Below, in pieces: positions 48,808-59,341 of a DNA stretch of 64,000 bases (the stretch's first letter is position 1; each line of letters begins with the position of its first letter). Position numbers and translations under genes: made by a program. The stretch comes from an uncultured Archangium sp. (GTDB lineage Bacteria > Myxococcota > Myxococcia > Myxococcales > Myxococcaceae): NCBI GenBank assembly GCA_903905455.1, contig CAIVGN010000029.1, positions 124,001 to 188,000 on the forward strand. Reading direction: 5' to 3'. The notes beneath the pieces are model-generated. The model did no database searches, was not told the DNA's origin, and saw only the letters and a list, made by a program, of their open reading frames with translations.

Positions 48808-49938
48808 TCACTCAGCGACAGCAGACGTCCGGACAGCCCGCCCGTGCCGCGAAGACCGCGCCGGCTCGCCCTTCTTCGCCGGGGCCACCTCGACCTCGAT
48901 GCGCGGTGCCGGCGACGCCACCACCGGCTGATCGTGCTTCGCGTAGAAGGCGACCAACTGCGGCCACAGCGTCTTCGCCGCGTGCTTCGAGACCACCGCG
49001 CCGACATGCCCGCCGGGCAGGTGCAGGTGCTGCTTGTCCACCGCGCCACAGGCGTCGATCAACGCCGCCGCGCTGGGGCCCGGCACGATGTTGTCGTGCT
49101 CGAAGCTGACCGCGAGGGTGGGGCACACGAGGTTCTTCAACTCGACCTTCCGACCCTTGAGCCGGAACCCGCCGGTGAGCAGCAGGTCCTGCTGGTACAG
49201 GTCCTTGATGAAGGTCCGGTAGAACTCGCCGGGGATCGACACGTTGTCGTTGCCCCAGGCCTCGAGCGCCAGGAAACCGTCGAGGAACTCGTCGTTCCAC
49301 GCGCGATCGAGCAGGTTCATCGCCTTCATCAGCGGCAGGGTCGGGCGCAGCAACTGGAACGCCGACTGGAGCAACTGCCAGGGCACGTTGCCGGTGGCCT
49401 CGACGAGGGTGTCGAGATCGAAGCCCTTCAGGTTGGTCCACCGCGAAAGCAGGCTGCCGTCGTTGAACTTCACGGGGGCGGCCAGCGCGATGAACGACTG
49501 GATGTACTCGGGGTGCACCGCGCCATGAATGGCGGTGAGGGTGCCGCCCATGCAGTAGCCGAGCACGTGCGTCTTCTCGTGGGGCACGGTCTTCGCGACC
49601 TGGCGAATGGCCCGGCCCAGCGCGCCATCGACGATGTCGTCGAAGGTGACGTAGCGGTCTTCATCACCGGGGGTGCCCCAGTCGATGCAGAACACGTCGA
49701 AGCCCTGGGCGACCATGTACTCCGCGAAGCTCTTCCCGGGCATCAGGTCGAGCACGTAGTGCCGGTTGATGAGCGAGGGCACCAGCAGCAGCGGAGTGGG
49801 GTGGCAGATGCCTTCCGGGCGGGCCCGGTAGCGCAGCAGGCGCCACTTGTTCTCGGAGAAGAAGACGTCGGCCGGCGTGATGCCGACCTGGGGCTTGGGG
49901 CGCGTCGCGAGCGACAGCAGGTTGGTGAAGCGCTTCAT
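48808..49938 (-). CDS. phaC: Poly(3-hydroxyalkanoate) synthase, class III-like PhaC
   Basis: PhaC polymerises hydroxyacyl-CoA into polyester granules. The lipase-like box is GYCMGG with nucleophile Cys129; Asp282 ([10 protein letters not shown]) and His311 ([10 protein letters not shown]) complete the triad, and DWGTPGDED is the conserved region after the first core strands. At 376 residues it has the length of class III/IV synthases, which need a PhaE or PhaR-type partner, rather than the roughly 590-residue class I. The C-terminus has an Arg/Pro/Lys-rich tail. It overlaps the acyl-CoA synthetase stop by 4 bases and is the last gene of the long minus-strand run. Confidence 0.93.
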
Positions 49939-51671
49939 TCGTACAGCGCCTCCACGCGCGCCCCGAAGTGCTTGGTGACTTCCTTGCGACGGACCTTGAG
50001 GGTGTTGGTGAGCAGGCCGCTCTCCACCGTCAGCGGGGTGTCGATGATCACGAACTTCTTGATGGTCTCGTAGGAGGCCAGCTGCGCGTTGACCTGGTCG
50101 ATGCGGGTCTGCACCAGGGCCTTGCGCGCCTCGTCGAGGGCCGCGGGGGCCACGTTCGAGGTCGCGAGGTGCGCGTTGACCGCCTGCTCGTGCAGCCAGA
50201 CGGCGCCCACGAGGTAGCGCTTGGCGTCACCGAAGACGACCACGGTGTTGATGAAGGGGTCGTCGCGGAAGCGGATCTCGATGTTCGCCGGGGGCACGTT
50301 CTTGCCGCCCGCGGTGACGAGGATGTCCTTCTTGCGGTCGATGATCTGCAGGAAGCCGTCGTCGGTGAAGCGGCCCACGTCGCCGGTCTTGAGCCAGCCG
50401 TCCTCGGTGAAGGCCTCGGCCGTGGCCGCGGGGTCCTTGTGGTACCCGCCGAACACCGTGGGGCCCTTGGCCATGATCTCGCCGTCTTCGGCGAGCTTGA
50501 GCTGCACCGAGGGCAGCACCTTGCCCACCGTGTCGAAGCGGAAGGCGTCGGGGCGGTTCAGGGTCAGCGTGGGGCTCGTCTCCGTCAGTCCGTAGCCTTC
50601 GATGATCAGCAGGCCCGCGGCGTGGAAGAACTCCTTCACCTCGCGCTTGAGGCCGGCGCCACCGGACAGGCAGAAGCGGAAGTTGCCGCCGGTGACCGCG
50701 TTGAGGGCCGCGGTGCGCTTGACCGGGTCCTTCTCGGGCATGGCCGCCATGGCCAGCTTTTCCCAGACCGCGGGCACGCTCATGAAGACGCTGGGCCGCA
50801 CCTCGGGGAGCAGCGCCATCGCCTTGTGCGGCTCACACAGGTAGGTGAGCCAGCCCAGCGCGTTCCCCAGGCAGGCCTCGCCAAAGCCGAAGATGTGGCT
50901 CATCGGCAGCCAGAGGAGATCGACGTCGTTCTTCTCGAGCAGGGGCGCGTTGCAGCGCAGCCAGTCCTGCCCGTTGACGCCCACGTTGCGGTGGGTGAGG
51001 GGCACGCCCTTGGGGTTGCCCGAGGTGCCGCTCGTGTAGAGCATCTGCGCGACCTGGTCCATCGACACGCTGTTGAGCAGGCGCTCGAACTCGGTGGGGG
51101 CCTCGGCGTCGCGCGCGGCGCCCAGGGCCTGCACGCGGCTCCACGAGATCAGCTTGCGCTCGACGTCGGCGACGGGCGGCACGGCCACGCCCTTGGCGCG
51201 CATGGCCTCGAGGATCGGCCCCGGCTCGAGGGGCTGGGTGCTCAGGGTCACGATGCGGGTGACCTGCGAGTAGTCGGCCCACGACTCGAAGATGCGCTGC
51301 AGCAGCGCGGGGGTGTCGACGAAGATCACCTTGGTGTCCGAGTGCTGCACCACGTAGGCCGCCTGGGGGGCGGTGTTCGCGGGGTACACCGGGACCATCA
51401 CGCCGCCGACGCTCTCGATGGCCATCGCCGCGCTGATCCACTCCACGGAGTTGGGCGCGAAGATCGCCGCGCGGTCGCCCGGCTGCAGGCCCGACGAGGC
51501 GAGGAAGAGCGCCGCGTTGCGGATGCCCTTGGCGTACGCGCCCCAGGTCACCGTGCGCCAGTCACCATCGGGGGTGGACAGCATGAACCGGGGTCGCGAC
51601 TTCCACGCGGGCAGCGCGTCAAAGAGGACCTTGGGGGCGGGCTTCAGTTCGAGAAAGGGCGTGATGTCCAT
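49935..51671 (-). CDS. Long-chain acyl-CoA synthetase (AMP-binding, FadD15-like)
   Basis: Activates a carboxylic acid to its CoA thioester with ATP. The P-loop [12 protein letters not shown], the GYGLTETSP motif and [21 protein letters not shown] in the C-terminal subdomain are all seen in 578 residues. This is the FadD15/ACSBG-like group that takes medium or long fatty acids. Its coupling to PhaC (ATGA) and to the PhaE-like gene (13 bases) suggests that it supplies CoA esters for polyester synthesis; the substrate could be a hydroxy acid or fatty acid. Confidence 0.9.
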
Positions 51672-51684
51672 GGGGTTCGGTTCC

Positions 51685-51972
51685 TCAGTTCTTCTTCAAC
51701 TCGGCGAGGCGCTCTTCGAGATCGATCAGGCGGCTCTGGATCTGGTTGAGCGCGTGCAGGGTCTTCTCCTGCTCACGCTTGGTCGGCAGGCCCAACGCCC
51801 CCCACCACTGCGCGGCGGCCTTCTCGGTCGCGGACTTCACCTTCATGGTGCTGGTGAGGAGTCCCGTCATGGGCTGCAGCACGGTGGGCGACTTGAGCAC
51901 CGACTCCAACATGTCGGCCGTCTTCTGCTCCCAGGTATCAAAGCCCTTCTTCCACTGGTCCCAGATCATCAT
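51685..51972 (-). CDS. Very short PhaE-like/phasin-like protein
   Basis: A 95-residue helical protein: an N-terminal Trp-rich helix ([20 protein letters not shown]), a central hydrophobic stretch, then [20 protein letters not shown] and a final leucine-heptad-like helix, [17 protein letters not shown]. The LGLPT/S-R-x motif followed by coiled coil is the hallmark of the PhaE C-terminal part (class III synthase subunit), normally in a protein of about 350 residues. Its position directly before the acyl-CoA synthetase and phaC makes it the probable synthase partner, a minimal PhaE. A phasin role is an alternative. Confidence 0.72.
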
Positions 51973-51984
51973 CGTGTGGCTCCC

Positions 51985-52815
51985 TCAGAGGCCGAGGCGT
52001 CGAAGCTCGGCGGTGGTGGTGAAATCGTCATTCGTCTCGCCATCGGCGGCCGTCGCGCGGGCGACTTCGCCGTAGCACTCGAACATCCAGCCGACCTGGC
52101 GGCGCACGATCGAACCGCCCACGGCAGACGCGATGGTGGTGGTGGTGCGCACCCGCAGCGACTGGCTGAAGGTGACGTCGGGCAGCTCGAGCTGGCCCGC
52201 CGCGTCGACGCTCACCACGTAGGTGTCACGCCCCGCGTAGGGCAGGCCGCGCACCGTGGCGTTCACCACGTTGCCGATGCTCGTCCACTGCTTTCCGGCC
52301 TCGAGGGGGAAGCGGAAGATCGCCACCGGCGCCTGGTAGACGACGAGCGTCTTGCCGGTGCTGGGGGCCTCTTCGCTCGACGCATAGCCGAGCAGCAGCA
52401 GGTTGCTGCCGTCGTTGTTGTACACGCCGAGGATCGTGCCGCCGAGGTCGAGCGCAGTGACGAACTGGCCCGCGGGGAAGCTGGCGGCGAACCAGTGACC
52501 GGAGACGGCGCTGGCCTCGAGGGTCGCCACGCGATCGTCCGCGTAGTCGGTGGCCAGGTTCCACACCCGCTGGCCCTGGGCGTTGGTCGCGCCAGGAATG
52601 CTCACCTGCCGCTGCACCCCGGGGGGCGACGCGAGGTAGTGCACGGGAATGCCGATCGCCGCCTTCAACTCGGTGACGTCGATGCGGCCGTCGAGGTTGG
52701 GCACGCACTCCAGCGGCGCGAGCGTCGGCGCGACGTAGGCTTCCTTGGTGGGGATGGTGCGGTTCTCACCGCAGGCGGCGAGCAGCAGGGCAACGGTGAT
52801 GAGCGAGCGCTTCAT
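51985..52815 (-). CDS. Secreted lipoprotein of the PHA operon (paralog of the 55288 gene)
   Basis: Signal MKRSLITVALLLAAC (Cys15). The mature part has CVPNLDGRIDVTELKAAIG, then FPLEAGKQWTSIGNVVNATVRG, and VGWMFECYGEVAR with FTTTAELRRLGL at the end. The 55288-56286 protein has the same order of motifs (CLPNLDGRIDRSE, FPLQAGASW, FTWNTECFGTVAS, FTDVAEVRRL), so they are paralogs. It starts 2 bases after the barrel gene's stop. A role at the surface with the barrel is inferred. Confidence 0.8.
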   Translation of the reverse strand: MKRSLITVALLLAACGENRTIPTKEAYVAPTLAPLECVPNLDGRIDVTELKAAIGIPVHYLASPPGVQRQVSIPGATNAQGQRVWNLATDYADDRVATLEASAVSGHWFAASFPAGQFVTALDLGGTILGVYNNDGSNLLLLGYASSEEAPSTGKTLVVYQAPVAIFRFPLEAGKQWTSIGNVVNATVRGLPYAGRDTYVVSVDAAGQLELPDVTFSQSLRVRTTTTIASAVGGSIVRRQVGWMFECYGEVARATAADGETNDDFTTTAELRRLGL

Positions 52816-52817
52816 GA

Positions 52818-54392
52818 TCAGAACCTCCACGCGAGGCGAACACGGGCCAGTTGCGCGGGTTGAGCGGTGAGCCCCTGTGCGGGGTTGTCGAAGCCGGCGA
52901 AGGGGAAGAGCACGGCGTACTCTGCGAGCACGTCGAAGCCGTCCTTGCTGGCCCAGGTGAGCGCGGCGTGAAGCTCCATGCCCAACGCGGCGTTGTTGCC
53001 CGGCGTCGAGCTGGCGAAGAAGGCCCGGCTGAACGTGCCATCGACGTTCAGGTTCAGGTTGTAGCTGCGGAACTCGAGCAGCCGGGCGCGCGCCCAGGGC
53101 CGCACGTACCAGGCGTCGGTGACGGTGCCGATGATCTCCGCGAAGAGGATGCGATCGACCCGGGAGTCCGGGTGGAAGCGGAAGTTATCCAGCCGCGTGT
53201 CCCTGGGGATGTTGACCTGCGGGCCGTCGAGCTCGCCAGCCTGCGGGGTGGTGCTCGAGGGCGGGTAGGCGCCGAAGCCGGGCGCCGGGTCACCGCTCGC
53301 CGCGCCGACGTTGAGGCCGCCGATGATCACCGAGTCGGGCACGCCGATGGTGGTCTCGATGGCGCCGCCGACCTGCAGCGAGGTGACGCGATCGCGCAGC
53401 AGCACGCCGGGGAAGAGCGAGGCCTGGTCCATGGTGGCACCGAGCACCGCGACCTCGGCCTCGAGCTTGAACATCGGGGCCTGGAAGCGCAGCCACCCGT
53501 TGACCACGCCCGCCTTGTAGCCGCGGTGCATCACGGAGCTGGGGGTGAGCACTGAGGGCTGCGTGGTGGGCAGGTACGACGTGGGCACGTCGTTGTTCTG
53601 CCAGCGGTACGACGCGAGGAGCCCGTACTCGAGCGTCCACTTGCCCGCGCGCAGGCGGCGCCGGCGGGTGGTGTCGTCCTTCAGGTTCATCATCGCGAAC
53701 GAGACCGACTGCACGTCGGTGCTCGGGTCGAGGATCAGCTGGCGGCTGCCGTCCTTGCGGTAGTCGGTGGGGCCGACCGCGCTGAAGTCGTAGGCCACCG
53801 CCCACAGGTGCTGCGCGAGCGAGGTGACGAAGGCCACGCGATCGGCCTGGTCGCCCAGGTTGCAGTCGATGCAGTCGCCGCCGTTGGACATCATGCCCAG
53901 GCCCCACATGTTGCCCATGCGGCCGGCCGCGAAGTAGCCGACGGGCGTGAGCACCTCGCCGTAGGCGCGCTTGAGGCGGAAGATCGAGTTGGGCAGCTGG
54001 CCGGGTGACGCGGCGGGCGTGGGCGCGTTGCCCGTGCCCGGCGAGAGCACCGGGGTCGAGCCGAGCACCAGGTTGTCGATCAGGTCGATGCGGACCTTCA
54101 CGGCGGCGGTCGCGAACGGCGCGTAGATCGCCAGATCGGTGCGCATGCGCATGTCGCTGGTGAAGAGCGACTGGCCGGTGGGGTCGCCCAGCGGCACGGC
54201 GAAGAGCGGCCGGCCCGAGGGCGTGGTGCCGCGATCGAGATCGAGGTTGTTCAGCCAGTCGCCGCGCAGGCGGAAGTAGCCGTGCAGCGAGAACTCGACC
54301 TTCTCGCGTTCGATGAGGTCTTCGCCGTGATCGGCGAGGCCAGAAGCGCCAGCCGTGGTCGCCAGCAACGCAACGAAAATGGAGGCCTTCAC
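52818..54392 (-). CDS. Outer-membrane beta-barrel protein (TIGR04551-like)
   Basis: GTG start, signal peptide (MKASIFVALLATTAGASG), 524 residues. Alternating beta-strand patterns, aromatic girdles and the C-terminal RVRLAWRF (terminal Phe, the usual BAM signal) indicate an outer-membrane barrel. The N-terminal FSLHGYFRLRGDWLNNLDLD and the internal GRMGNMWGLGMMSNGGDC resemble a myxobacterial outer-membrane family I recall as TIGR04551. Position between the hydrolase and a lipoprotein (4-base GTGA overlap and 2-base gap) suggests a channel for the pathway's substrate, but neither substrate nor gating can be read from the sequence. Confidence 0.8.
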   Translation of the reverse strand: MKASIFVALLATTAGASGLADHGEDLIEREKVEFSLHGYFRLRGDWLNNLDLDRGTTPSGRPLFAVPLGDPTGQSLFTSDMRMRTDLAIYAPFATAAVKVRIDLIDNLVLGSTPVLSPGTGNAPTPAASPGQLPNSIFRLKRAYGEVLTPVGYFAAGRMGNMWGLGMMSNGGDCIDCNLGDQADRVAFVTSLAQHLWAVAYDFSAVGPTDYRKDGSRQLILDPSTDVQSVSFAMMNLKDDTTRRRRLRAGKWTLEYGLLASYRWQNNDVPTSYLPTTQPSVLTPSSVMHRGYKAGVVNGWLRFQAPMFKLEAEVAVLGATMDQASLFPGVLLRDRVTSLQVGGAIETTIGVPDSVIIGGLNVGAASGDPAPGFGAYPPSSTTPQAGELDGPQVNIPRDTRLDNFRFHPDSRVDRILFAEIIGTVTDAWYVRPWARARLLEFRSYNLNLNVDGTFSRAFFASSTPGNNAALGMELHAALTWASKDGFDVLAEYAVLFPFAGFDNPAQGLTAQPAQLARVRLAWRF

Positions 54393-55291
54393 GGCGTCAC
54401 CCCACCGAGAAAGCGAACGAGGTCGCGGTTCGAATCACCCACCGCCTCGAGCATCGGAAAGTGGCCGCAGCGCGGGTACACGTTCAGCTTCGAGTTGGGG
54501 AGTTGTCGCAAGAGCCGCTCGCCAATGGACACAGGGGAGACGAGGTCTTCGCGCCCCCACATCAGCAGGGTAGGCGCGGTGATGGTGCGGTACTTCGACT
54601 CCATGGAGTCGAAGGTCATGCCGCGCACGGTCTCGAGGGCGGCAAAGCGGGTGCCGGGGCGCTCGAAGGCGCGCTCGACGTCTTCCACCAACTGCTCGGT
54701 GATGATCTCCGGGTTGTAGAACCCCAGGGCGAGGCGCTCGTCGTAACGCTCCGTGTAGAAGAGGGCGTAGAGCATCTCGCCGAAGCCCTTGGCGCGGGCC
54801 ATGTGGAACATCGAGGGCAGCTGCGACTCGTAGACCCAGGCGTCGTAGAGCACGAGGCGATCGACCTGGTCGGGGTAGGCGAGCGCGTAGGCCAGCGCCA
54901 CCGACGAGCCCCACGAGTGGGCGACGATCGAGGCCTTCTCGACCTTGCGCTCGTCGAGCACCGCGCGCAGCAGCTTCGCCTGGCCTTCCGGCGAGTAGTC
55001 GGCGACCGGGCGATCCGTCCACCCGAAGCCGCGCAGGTCGATGGCGATGACCCGGTGATCCTTCACCAGCCGGGGCATCACCGTGACCCAGTTCTCGATG
55101 CTCGAGGCGAAGCCGTGCAGCAGCACCACCGGGGGGCCTTCACCGACGTCGACGTAGCGAACGCGCGTGCCCTCGACGGTGAGGTAGGTCGCGTCCTTCG
55201 GCTCGCCCGGCATGGGGCCGTTGTGAAAGTGCAGACACCCGCTGAGCCCCAGGAAGAGCAGGGGCAGCAGGGGCGAGGCGACGCGAGTCAA
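54389..55291 (-). CDS. Lipid-anchored alpha/beta hydrolase (esterase/lipase-like)
   Basis: The TTG start gives a lipoprotein signal (MTRVASPLLPLLFLGLSGC; Cys19). The catalytic triad is Ser126 in AHSWGSS, Asp249 in WGREDLVS and His277 in RCGHFPMLE, with the oxyanion region LLHGFASS at 57-64. This is an epoxide-hydrolase-like or esterase fold anchored in an envelope membrane. Later in-frame Met starts would remove the signal, so TTG is kept; it overlaps the upstream lipoprotein stop by 4 bases. In a PHA operon a role in releasing acids from external esters or lipids is a reasonable inference. Confidence 0.85.
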   Translation of the reverse strand: MTRVASPLLPLLFLGLSGCLHFHNGPMPGEPKDATYLTVEGTRVRYVDVGEGPPVVLLHGFASSIENWVTVMPRLVKDHRVIAIDLRGFGWTDRPVADYSPEGQAKLLRAVLDERKVEKASIVAHSWGSSVALAYALAYPDQVDRLVLYDAWVYESQLPSMFHMARAKGFGEMLYALFYTERYDERLALGFYNPEIITEQLVEDVERAFERPGTRFAALETVRGMTFDSMESKYRTITAPTLLMWGREDLVSPVSIGERLLRQLPNSKLNVYPRCGHFPMLEAVGDSNRDLVRFLGGVTP

Positions 55292-56286
55292 GGCGACAAC
55301 CTCCGCACTTCGGCCACGTCGGTGAACTCAGCGGTGGTCCCGTTGTCCTTGCCGGTGACCGAGGCCACGGTGCCAAAGCACTCGGTGTTCCAGGTGAAGC
55401 TGCGCAGGGTGAGGGTGGGGATGAAGTTGATGGTGCGGCTCATCACCGAGCGCACGCGCAGGGCGGGGAAGCTGGCGAAGGGCGTCTTCGCCTCGCCCAC
55501 CGCGTCCACGTTCATCTGGTAGCTCTCGGTCTGCGCGACGCCGAAGGTGCCGCCGATGGTGAGTTGGCCGGTGCTGGACGTGTAGTACTTGCCGCTCACC
55601 GTGGTGGCGGTGGACCACGACGCGCCCGCCTGGAGCGGGAACTGGAGCACCTTCACCCATGGGGTGTACGCCAGCTTCGTCGAGGTCGTCGTGCCGGCAA
55701 CGGGCGACACCACACCCTGCAGGTAGAGGCCGTCGTTGGTCGCCGCGAAGACACCGAGGAGGTCGCTGCTCTGGCTGAGTTGCGTGACGTAGCCCGCGTC
55801 GGGGAAGTCGGTCAGGTACTCGCTGGGCACCGGCTTGGTCTCCACCAACCGCGTGTTGTCGGTGGCCAGGGCCGCAGTGAAGTCCCACACGCGCCCGCCA
55901 TCGGTCGCCGCGGTGCCCGCCGTGTCGAAGGTCGCCGCGCCGCTGATCTTGAAGGTCGCGCGCAGGCCCGACTGGAAGAACACCTCGGAGCGATCGATGC
56001 GCCCGTCGAGGTTGGGAAGGCAGCCCACGGGCGTGCCGGCATCGACGCCACCATCTTCCGTCGTCGTGCCACCATCGGGCAGGACCTGGCCTCCGTCGGC
56101 CGCGATCATCCCGCCGTCCTCGAGCACCGTGCTCCCAGCGTCGGTGACGGTCGCCGGCCCGCAGGTTCCATCACCGAGGCACACCCCGCTGGCACAGTCC
56201 GCGCCGACGCGGCAATCAACGACGGTGGTGCCGGAACAAGCGGCGAAAGCAGAGACGACAGCGGCGAGTGAAATGGAACGAAGCAC
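55288..56286 (-). CDS. Secreted lipoprotein of the PHA operon (paralog of the 51985 gene)
   Basis: The GTG at 56286 has GGAGGA seven bases upstream; the signal LRSISLAAVVSAFAAC has Cys17. An EGF-like cysteine-rich segment follows (CRVGADCASGVCLGDGTC), then Asp/Gly-rich repeats (DGGMIAADGGQVLPDGG). The C-terminal 230 residues are paralogous to the 51985 lipoprotein, with CLPNLDGRIDRSE and FTWNTECFGTVAS. An apparent extension up to 56601 in this frame is antisense-like and is not used. It is 25 bases after the MFS gene. Confidence 0.8.
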   Translation of the reverse strand: MLRSISLAAVVSAFAACSGTTVVDCRVGADCASGVCLGDGTCGPATVTDAGSTVLEDGGMIAADGGQVLPDGGTTTEDGGVDAGTPVGCLPNLDGRIDRSEVFFQSGLRATFKISGAATFDTAGTAATDGGRVWDFTAALATDNTRLVETKPVPSEYLTDFPDAGYVTQLSQSSDLLGVFAATNDGLYLQGVVSPVAGTTTSTKLAYTPWVKVLQFPLQAGASWSTATTVSGKYYTSSTGQLTIGGTFGVAQTESYQMNVDAVGEAKTPFASFPALRVRSVMSRTINFIPTLTLRSFTWNTECFGTVASVTGKDNGTTAEFTDVAEVRRLSP

Positions 56287-57568: not shown

Positions 57569-58087
57569 ATGCTCATCAAGAAATACGGCAACCGGCGCCT
57601 CTACGACACCGAGTCGAGCCGCTACATCACGCTCGACGATCTCACCGAGGCGGTGCGCGGCGGGGCCGACGCCCGGGTGATCGACGCCAAGACCGGCGCC
57701 GATCTCACCCAGGTGACGCTGACGCAGATCATCATGGAAGGAAGAGGGGGCGAGAAGATCCTCCCCGCGCCGCTCCTCCACCAGCTCATTCGCCTCGGAG
57801 ACGACGCCCTCGCCGACTTCCTCGGGCGCTACGTGCAGGCCGCCCTCGAGCTGTACCTCACGGCCCGCAAGACCACCCAGAGCTTCATGCCTTTCAACCC
57901 CCTGGTGGCCCTCACCCAGTTCGCCAACAACACCCCCTTCGGCGGCTGGGCCCAGCCCGCGCAGCCCCCGGTGCCCGTGCCCTCCACCGTCGCGCCCACG
58001 CCGCCGCCGCCCCCCAACACCGACGTCGACGAGCTCCGCCGCGAGGTCGACGAGCTCAAGGGAATGCTGCGCAAGCGCAAGAAATGA
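57569..58087 (+). CDS. phaR: PHA accumulation regulator PhaR
   Basis: Residues 1-60 are the PHB/PHA accumulation regulator DNA-binding domain (MLIKKYGNRRLYDTESSRYI, then TQVTLTQIIMEGRG), and a second conserved block (LLHQLIRLGDDALADFLGRY) follows, in 172 residues. The tail is Pro-rich with a final coiled coil (VDELRREVDELKGMLRKRKK). Known PhaR proteins repress phasin genes and sense PHA by binding to the polymer, and they repress themselves. Genes for a phasin, a reductase, PhaC and a short PhaE-like protein flank it here, so its regulon is largely local. Confidence 0.92.
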   Translation: MLIKKYGNRRLYDTESSRYITLDDLTEAVRGGADARVIDAKTGADLTQVTLTQIIMEGRGGEKILPAPLLHQLIRLGDDALADFLGRYVQAALELYLTARKTTQSFMPFNPLVALTQFANNTPFGGWAQPAQPPVPVPSTVAPTPPPPPNTDVDELRREVDELKGMLRKRKK

Positions 58088-58222: not shown

Positions 58223-58495
58223 ATGGCCGAGACCAAGACCGTCGCTTCGCAGGTGCAGCAGTTCGCTGGCGAGAACATGAAGAAGATGTTCGAGGAGCAG
58301 ACGACCCGCATGACCCAGATGTTTGACGAGATGGGCAAGGCGCACACGAAGTGGATCGAGTACGGCAACACGCAGCTCGACGAGATGAACGAGCTGATGA
58401 AGACCCAGTTCAACTACGCGAACGAGCTCGCGGCCGGCTGGCGCAAGATGAGCCTCGAGACGGCGAAGAAGTCGGTCGAGTCGTTCAAGGCCTGA
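58223..58495 (+). CDS. Phasin (PHA granule-associated protein)
   Basis: A 90-residue, almost wholly helical amphipathic protein (SQVQQFAGENMKKMFEEQTT, MDEMGKAHTKWIEYGNTQLD-type heptads, ELAAGWRKMSLETAKKSVES), matching small phasin-family proteins that coat PHA granules. A strong GAGGAG ribosome-binding site precedes the ATG at 58223. It is followed by a good terminator, so it can be made at high level alone. Confidence 0.85.
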   Translation: MAETKTVASQVQQFAGENMKKMFEEQTTRMTQMFDEMGKAHTKWIEYGNTQLDEMNELMKTQFNYANELAAGWRKMSLETAKKSVESFKA

Positions 58496-58523
58496 GCCGT
58501 ACCGTTCGAACCTGTCGCACCTT

Positions 58524-58567
58524 GCGCCGTGACGCCCCACAACCGGGTGTCACGGCGCCTGTCTTTT
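58524..58567 (+). terminator. Intrinsic terminator of the phasin gene
   Basis: GCGCCGTGAC (58524-58533) pairs perfectly with GTCACGGCGC (58549-58558), followed by TGTCTTTT (58560-58567). It is 28 bases after the phasin stop and 27 before the reductase start. Confidence 0.85.
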
Positions 58568-58594
58568 GGGCCCCGGGCGGCTAAACGGGCGCTC

Positions 58595-59341
58595 ATGAAC
58601 CTCAACGACCTGAAGATCATCGTCACCGGCGGCGCCCAGGGCATGGGCCTGCACTTCGCCAACCGGCTCCACGAGGCGGGCGCGAAGGTGGCGGTCGGCG
58701 ACGTGAACGAAGCCGCCCTGGCCACGCTGGCGCCGGGCATCAAGCGCAAGAAGCTCGACGTGAGCAACGAGGCCGACGTGGTGAGCTTCGTGGCCTGGGC
58801 GCACGCCGAGCTGGGCGGCCTCAACGGCCTGGTCAACAACGCGGGCATCCTCCGCGACGGGCTGCTGGTGAAGAAGGACAAGACCACCGGCGCGGTCACC
58901 AAGATGAGCACCGAGCAGTTCAACGCGGTGATCAACGTCAACCTCACCGGCGCCACGATGATGGTCCGCGAGGTGGTGGCGAAGATGGTCACCGAGGGAC
59001 ACCGCCCCGGGGTGATCGTCAACATGTCGTCCATTGCCCGGCACGGGAACCGCGGGCAGTCGAACTACGTCTCGGCCAAGGCGGCCCTGGCGGCCAACAC
59101 CGTGACCTGGTCGAAGGAGTTCGCCGGCTTCGGCATCCGCGTGGGCGCCGTCGCCCCGGGCATGGTCGAGACCCCCATGACCTCGGGCATGAACCAGAAG
59201 GCCCTCGAAGCCTTCGTCGAGAAGATCCCCGTCGGCCGCATCGGCCAGCCCGAAGATCTCTGGCTGGCGGTGAAGTTCGTCCTCGAGTGCGACTACTTCA
59301 ACGGACGAACCATCGATGTCGATGGTGGCATGGGCTTCTGA
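58595..59341 (+). CDS. SDR-family 3-oxoacyl reductase, PhaB/FabG-like
   Basis: A classical short-chain dehydrogenase: TGGAQGMG (residues 11-18), NNAG (81-84), Ser145 and Tyr158-x3-Lys162 (SNYVSAKAA), and VAPGMVETPM. The length is 248. PhaB reduces acetoacetyl-CoA to (R)-3-hydroxybutyryl-CoA, the PHB monomer; location next to phaR and the phasin supports this, but FabG-like or alcohol dehydrogenase roles cannot be excluded. The ATG at 58595 is used. Confidence 0.85.
   Translation: MNLNDLKIIVTGGAQGMGLHFANRLHEAGAKVAVGDVNEAALATLAPGIKRKKLDVSNEADVVSFVAWAHAELGGLNGLVNNAGILRDGLLVKKDKTTGAVTKMSTEQFNAVINVNLTGATMMVREVVAKMVTEGHRPGVIVNMSSIARHGNRGQSNYVSAKAALAANTVTWSKEFAGFGIRVGAVAPGMVETPMTSGMNQKALEAFVEKIPVGRIGQPEDLWLAVKFVLECDYFNGRTIDVDGGMGF

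Follow-up and report, generated by a model that had tools for sequence, protein, structure and literature searches.

In reviews and genome papers, two classes of PHA synthase are commonly separated by their helper subunit, PhaE in class III and PhaR in class IV. Class III PhaE proteins span ~20-40 kDa, whereas a PhaE-like protein encoded in the 64,000-nucleotide stretch of DNA analysed here (the window) measures 10.9 kDa, outside that range and only half as large as the smallest PhaE on record (PMC6403647). A short PhaE can work, as polymer synthesis in Haloferax mediterranei strictly requires its ~20 kDa PhaE (PMC2939530), and some functional haloarchaeal PhaE proteins lack the PhaE box. The locus raises the question of what so small a protein, hereafter mini-PhaE, might be: a synthase subunit, a phasin, the remnant of a longer gene or a component of lipid metabolism.

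The mini-PhaE gene and its conservation

The original prediction of a 95-residue gene at 51685-51972 holds in both coordinates and size; the ORF comprises 95 codons on the minus strand and is preceded by a purine-rich GAGGGAG 5' of its ATG. It is the fifth of seven tightly packed minus-strand genes, lying 12 bp from the upstream ORF and 13 bp from an acyl-CoA synthetase gene, which in turn overlaps phaC by 4 bp (spacings from the hydrolase gene to PhaC1: -4, -13, +12, +13, -4 bp). Plus-strand genes for a PHA repressor, a phasin-like protein and a reductase are found ~6-7 kb away. The features are as follows:

48808..49938, minus strand: PhaC1, PHA synthase-like catalytic subunit, 376 aa (profile searches)
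49935..51671, minus strand: acyl-CoA synthetase (AMP-binding), 578 aa (profile searches)
51685..51972, minus strand: mini-PhaE, 95 aa, 10.9 kDa; start at 51972, stop codon at 51687-51685
51985..52830, minus strand: lipoprotein-like ORF of the mini-PhaE operon, lipobox LAAC; no Pfam match at E <= 1
52818..54392, minus strand: TIGR04551 family protein; its structure model is an outer-membrane beta-barrel
54389..55291, minus strand: alpha/beta-hydrolase with lipoprotein signal LSGC
55288..56286, minus strand: another lipoprotein-like gene, probably starting with GTG at 56286
57569..58087, plus strand: PHA synthesis regulator of the PhaR-repressor type (PF07879, 94 bits; TIGR01848, 102.7 of 109 bits), which is not the class IV PhaR subunit
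58223..58495, plus strand: phasin-like protein, 90 aa; no family match above cut-off
58529..59341, plus strand: short-chain reductase of the FabG/PhaB type, encoded after the phasin-like gene

A scan of species genomes confirmed 99 loci encoding relatives of mini-PhaE, the best 80 of which were retained. All 80 encode a protein of ~90-134 aa (by the chosen start codons) with 50-81% identity to that of the window, and their carriers bear myxobacterial or deltaproteobacterial titles, apart from a few given simply as ‘Proteobacteria’ or ‘bacterium’. Mean column identity across 71 family members is 60%, with W14/E15, GLPT and R66/Q68/E69 wholly or almost invariant, and comparison with four relatives gives a dN/dS of ~0.14-0.38 (dN 0.12-0.20, dS 0.45-0.91). 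Mini-PhaE is under purifying selection, and represents a phylum-wide conserved family rather than a one-off truncation. That it might be a decaying remnant of full-length PhaE, as could be supposed because ~230 positions at the start of the PhaE profile are missing, is scarcely credible, being ruled out by the uniform size, the conservation and the dN/dS of the family.

One further relative, a 94-aa protein (L150:6745-7029, genome G167; 39.6 bits), is encoded on a 14 kb stretch within which no PhaC was detected; its neighbour resembles, by eye, an HtpX-type protease.

Relationship to PhaE, PhaR and phasins

The sequence feature first noted in this gene, an LGLPT-R-x motif with a coiled coil, is present in mini-PhaE as GLPT-x-R followed by a heptad-like tail. 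Mini-PhaE matches the Pfam PhaE family PF09712 with 29.1 bits (gathering cut-off 25.7 bits, E = 7.6e-7; 26 bits in a genome-wide search), aligning with positions 230-308 of 311; only the last ~85 positions of the model are matched, in agreement with the initial view that most of the usual PhaE is absent. The NCBIfam PhaE model TIGR01834 gives 29.2 bits (E = 6.5e-7), far under its subfamily cut-off of 154.95 because mini-PhaE covers only the C-terminal 90 of 324 model positions. When each homologue was scanned singly, TIGR01834 matched 65 of 71 and Pfam PhaE matched 63. No full-length PhaE was detected elsewhere in the window's genome, where all other matches are weak, partial and below cut-off, and a tblastn search of 72,556 plasmids with mini-PhaE returned five weak matches, all annotated as PhaE.

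Similarity extends to the class IV subunit. The PhaR model TIGR02132 matches 14 of the 71 relatives at E <= 0.01 (best 2.5e-6), the window protein itself giving no match at E up to 1 (model cut-off 148.4 bits). A profile built from 80 mini-PhaE proteins (the mini profile) is collinear over positions 4-92 with residues 10-98 of Priestia PhaR (23 bits), and aligns with residues 99-167 of Rhizobium PhaE (25 bits) and 95-174 of Haladaptatus PhaE (24 bits), all three in one register. For each of these proteins, none of 1000 composition shuffles reached the score, although shuffling controls poorly for helical proteins, which can inflate scores as modest as these. The proteins from L152, L154 and L156 did not score distinctly from their shuffles, and are not counted as homologous to the mini profile on that test. 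In these alignments, the same ~85 residues form the C-terminus of PhaE, the N-terminus of PhaR and the whole of mini-PhaE. Cross-matching of PhaE and PhaR has been remarked for Rubrobacter (PMC8146576), and the mini form supports the view that the two constitute one family.

Mini-PhaE thus resembles class III PhaE in its homology over the last ~85 residues, its GLPT motif ahead of a coiled-coil-like helix, and its location upstream of phaC, but differs in its length (95 vs. ~180-380 aa, without the N-terminal two thirds), in the acyl-CoA synthetase gene that precedes phaC, and in a partner PhaC without the class III motif. The collinear class IV PhaR of Priestia/Bacillus, in contrast, carries ~100 more C-terminal residues and, in Priestia, is encoded in the order phaR-phaB-phaC. 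Haloarchaeal PhaE is likewise reduced yet indispensable (Haloferax mediterranei, PMC2939530), but at 182 aa has twice the length of mini-PhaE and is paired with a PhaC possessing a long C-terminus. The Novosphingobium aromaticivorans protein WP_011906797.1 (121 aa, annotated as PhaE) is also short and encoded beside a PhaC gene; however, it matches the PhaR model best (40.9 bits, under the cut-off), its similarity to the mini family is weak (11 bits), and it accompanies another PhaC lineage with no synthetase gene between.

Mini-PhaE could be a phasin-like granule coat protein with a PhaE helix pattern by chance, covering or linking granules without touching the synthase: it is small, basic (pI 9.0) and helical, as phasins are, the PHA granule protein model TIGR01837 matches 2 of the 71 family members weakly, and both the 94-aa L150 protein and the 121-aa Novosphingobium protein score near the cut-off of the phasin family PF05597. 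We consider this unlikely, since those two TIGR01837 matches stand against PhaE matches in 63-65 of the same 71 proteins, a separate phasin-like gene is already present at 58223-58495, and mini-PhaE travels with synthase genes. Among PF05597, TIGR01837 and PF09602, the window protein matches only PF09602 (PhaP_Bmeg), with E = 0.51; the last helices of PhaF/PhaI-type phasins (PF05597/TIGR01837) are distantly similar in a few family members, but in none of the tests made did the window protein match these phasins best. The profile comparison that had been proposed as a check thus favours PhaE by far, and an ordinary phasin identity is rejected.

Other PhaE-like proteins were encountered outside the mini family. 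Four loci (L148, L149, L154, L155) encode 148-aa PhaE-like proteins (184 aa by the first start in L148) beside a different, Myxococcaceae clade of PhaC; these are weakly similar to the mini profile, and no protein of this type was found beside PhaC2 in mini-bearing loci, where it was looked for. A single 622-aa frame (L153:6341-8209, G074:C56) encodes a PhaE-like core fused to a PhaC-like domain, in which the lipase box reads GVEHGG and the catalytic Cys is lacking.

The neighbouring synthase and its co-occurrence with mini-PhaE

The expected position of mini-PhaE before an acyl-CoA synthetase and a 376-aa PhaC is confirmed and recurs widely: the synthetase gene adjoins mini-PhaE in 74, and a PhaC1 ortholog lies downstream in 63, of the best 80 of 99 loci, several of the remainder stopping at contig ends. 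In three loci (L076, L097, L121), mini-PhaE directly precedes PhaC1, with no synthetase gene between. Within a set of 60 related genomes, 15 encode both mini-PhaE and PhaC1, two encode mini-PhaE without PhaC1, and none encodes PhaC1 without mini-PhaE (Fisher p = 2.6e-12, a value that is too small owing to the relatedness of the genomes); the two exceptions are incomplete (78% and 69%), and the mini-PhaE gene is near a contig end in both.

PhaC1 has the length of a class III synthase, as foreseen, but is not strictly class III by motif, profile or phylogeny. All 61 of the rows aligned retain its triad (Cys129, Asp282, His311), set in a G-x-C-x-G-G box, but PhaC1 scores 277 bits on TIGR01836, below the 365-bit class III cut-off. 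The class III motif RMExWIxDxxD (PMC7137286), found in exact form in L151, L152 and Haladaptatus, is absent from PhaC1, where a different 11-residue stretch is read and the initial R is replaced by A in all 61 rows. In a phylogenetic tree, PhaC1 groups in one clade (support 100/98) with PhaC2, a synthase ~40-46% identical to the window's PhaC1 and encoded beyond the PHA repressor and phasin-like genes in many relatives; this clade is separate from those class III, class IV and Myxococcaceae-type synthases that the tree contained. For PhaC1, N-terminal length was measured as the codons separating the upstream stop codon from the YRxxP anchor; these number 28-52 in 60 of 63 loci, vs. 52-67 residues ahead of the anchor in the class III and class IV synthases used for comparison, so that the N-terminus is ~20 residues shorter in most loci. 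In haloarchaea, the N-terminal region of PhaC is a proposed site of interaction with PhaE (PMC12863089), and both this shortening and the missing class III motif count against a subunit role for mini-PhaE.

PhaC1, with the acyl-CoA synthetase, might instead act in lipid metabolism as an acyltransferase or hydrolase, and mini-PhaE would then be its partner. Such a role would fit the prevalence of the adjoining synthetase gene, the sub-threshold TIGR01836 score of PhaC1, the outer-membrane barrel and lipoproteins of the operon, and a match of PhaC1 to the N-terminal part of the 994-aa acyl-CoA synthetase model NF005898 (E = 3.6e-18), which suggests that proteins with a PhaC-like domain fused to a synthetase exist. 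It is nevertheless decidedly improbable, given the intact cysteine triad in every aligned PhaC1, the loci in which mini-PhaE precedes PhaC1 without a synthetase, the nearby PHA repressor, phasin-like and reductase genes, and the absence of any other PhaC in the window's genome at E <= 1e-10.

The pairing of mini-PhaE with PhaC1 is not strict, as three genomes, including Minicystis rosea (L078, L101, L108), encode mini-PhaE and the synthetase with no PhaC1 and only a PhaC2-like synthase. This persistence would be in keeping with a subunit shared between the two synthases, and mini-PhaE may serve both. In relatives, the phasin-like gene is followed by PhaC2; in the window (58223-59341), it is followed by the reductase gene, with no copy of PhaC2.

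A candidate minimal synthase subunit

Taken with its homology and synteny, mini-PhaE is probably a minimal, non-catalytic subunit of the PhaE/PhaR type, belonging to a Myxococcota PHA synthase. The compact synthase partner envisaged in the original prediction is thus the best-supported reading with regard to its PhaE-like character, but has to be amended in that the protein belongs to a phylum-wide family, is related to PhaR as well, and accompanies a PhaC1 that is not strictly class III. As a helper subunit of a synthase, mini-PhaE is ordinary in kind; it is unusual in its size, as a bare PhaE/PhaR core. In the literature searched, mainly that in openly accessible journals, no paper describing a PhaE-like subunit from myxobacteria was found.

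An AlphaFold2 model of the monomer predicts three helices (residues 2-27, 29-59 and 65-94); the GLPT loop connects the second helix to the third. Mean pLDDT is 84 and pTM is low (0.36); the low pTM, like the lack of a PDB match for the model, counts against a subunit role. A model of this kind might be expected for a helical protein whose folding takes place on a partner. No relative of mini-PhaE was found in the PDB by sequence or fold, matches to 1ya9 and 8uzp being rejected as helical background, and sequence searches found solved structures neither for the mini family nor for any PhaR.

We infer from these features a mechanism comprising physical binding, activation and polymer formation. 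The 95-residue protein would represent just the helical core common to PhaE and PhaR, docking on PhaC1, and perhaps PhaC2 too, through the GLPT loop and the long helices; once docked, it would stabilise the active oligomer at the start of a granule, enabling polymerisation of hydroxyacyl-CoA by the Cys-Asp-His triad. A scavenge-activate-store role can be imagined for the operon as a whole, in which the surface lipoproteins, barrel, hydrolase and synthetase would convert scavenged acyl groups into CoA esters for storage. More tentatively, and with appreciable doubt, these synthases may form a distinct Myxococcota class in which one ~95-residue PhaE/PhaR core serves both PhaC1 (with the acyl-CoA synthetase) and PhaC2 (with the phasin). 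PhaE and PhaR would then belong to a single family, and activation would require no more than the core.

A natural protein consisting only of the core common to PhaE and PhaR would point to which ~85 residues matter, and, if the proposed role is true, would show how little of the helper subunit is required. Mini-PhaE also offers a small construct for structural work on synthase activation and a short candidate activator for engineered PHA producers, and adds a Myxococcota subtype for which current models score below cut-off.

Two further observations concern the upstream genes of the operon. The TIGR04551 protein (52818-54392) is conserved beside mini-PhaE over Myxococcota, and its structure model contains ~18 strands (pLDDT 73), the best PDB matches being AlgE, MOMP and OpdK-type porins (TM ~0.5). 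Orthologs of the lipoprotein-like gene at 55288-56286 are ~30% identical to the 51985-52830 protein, which suggests that these two genes, flanking those for the hydrolase and the barrel, arose by duplication.
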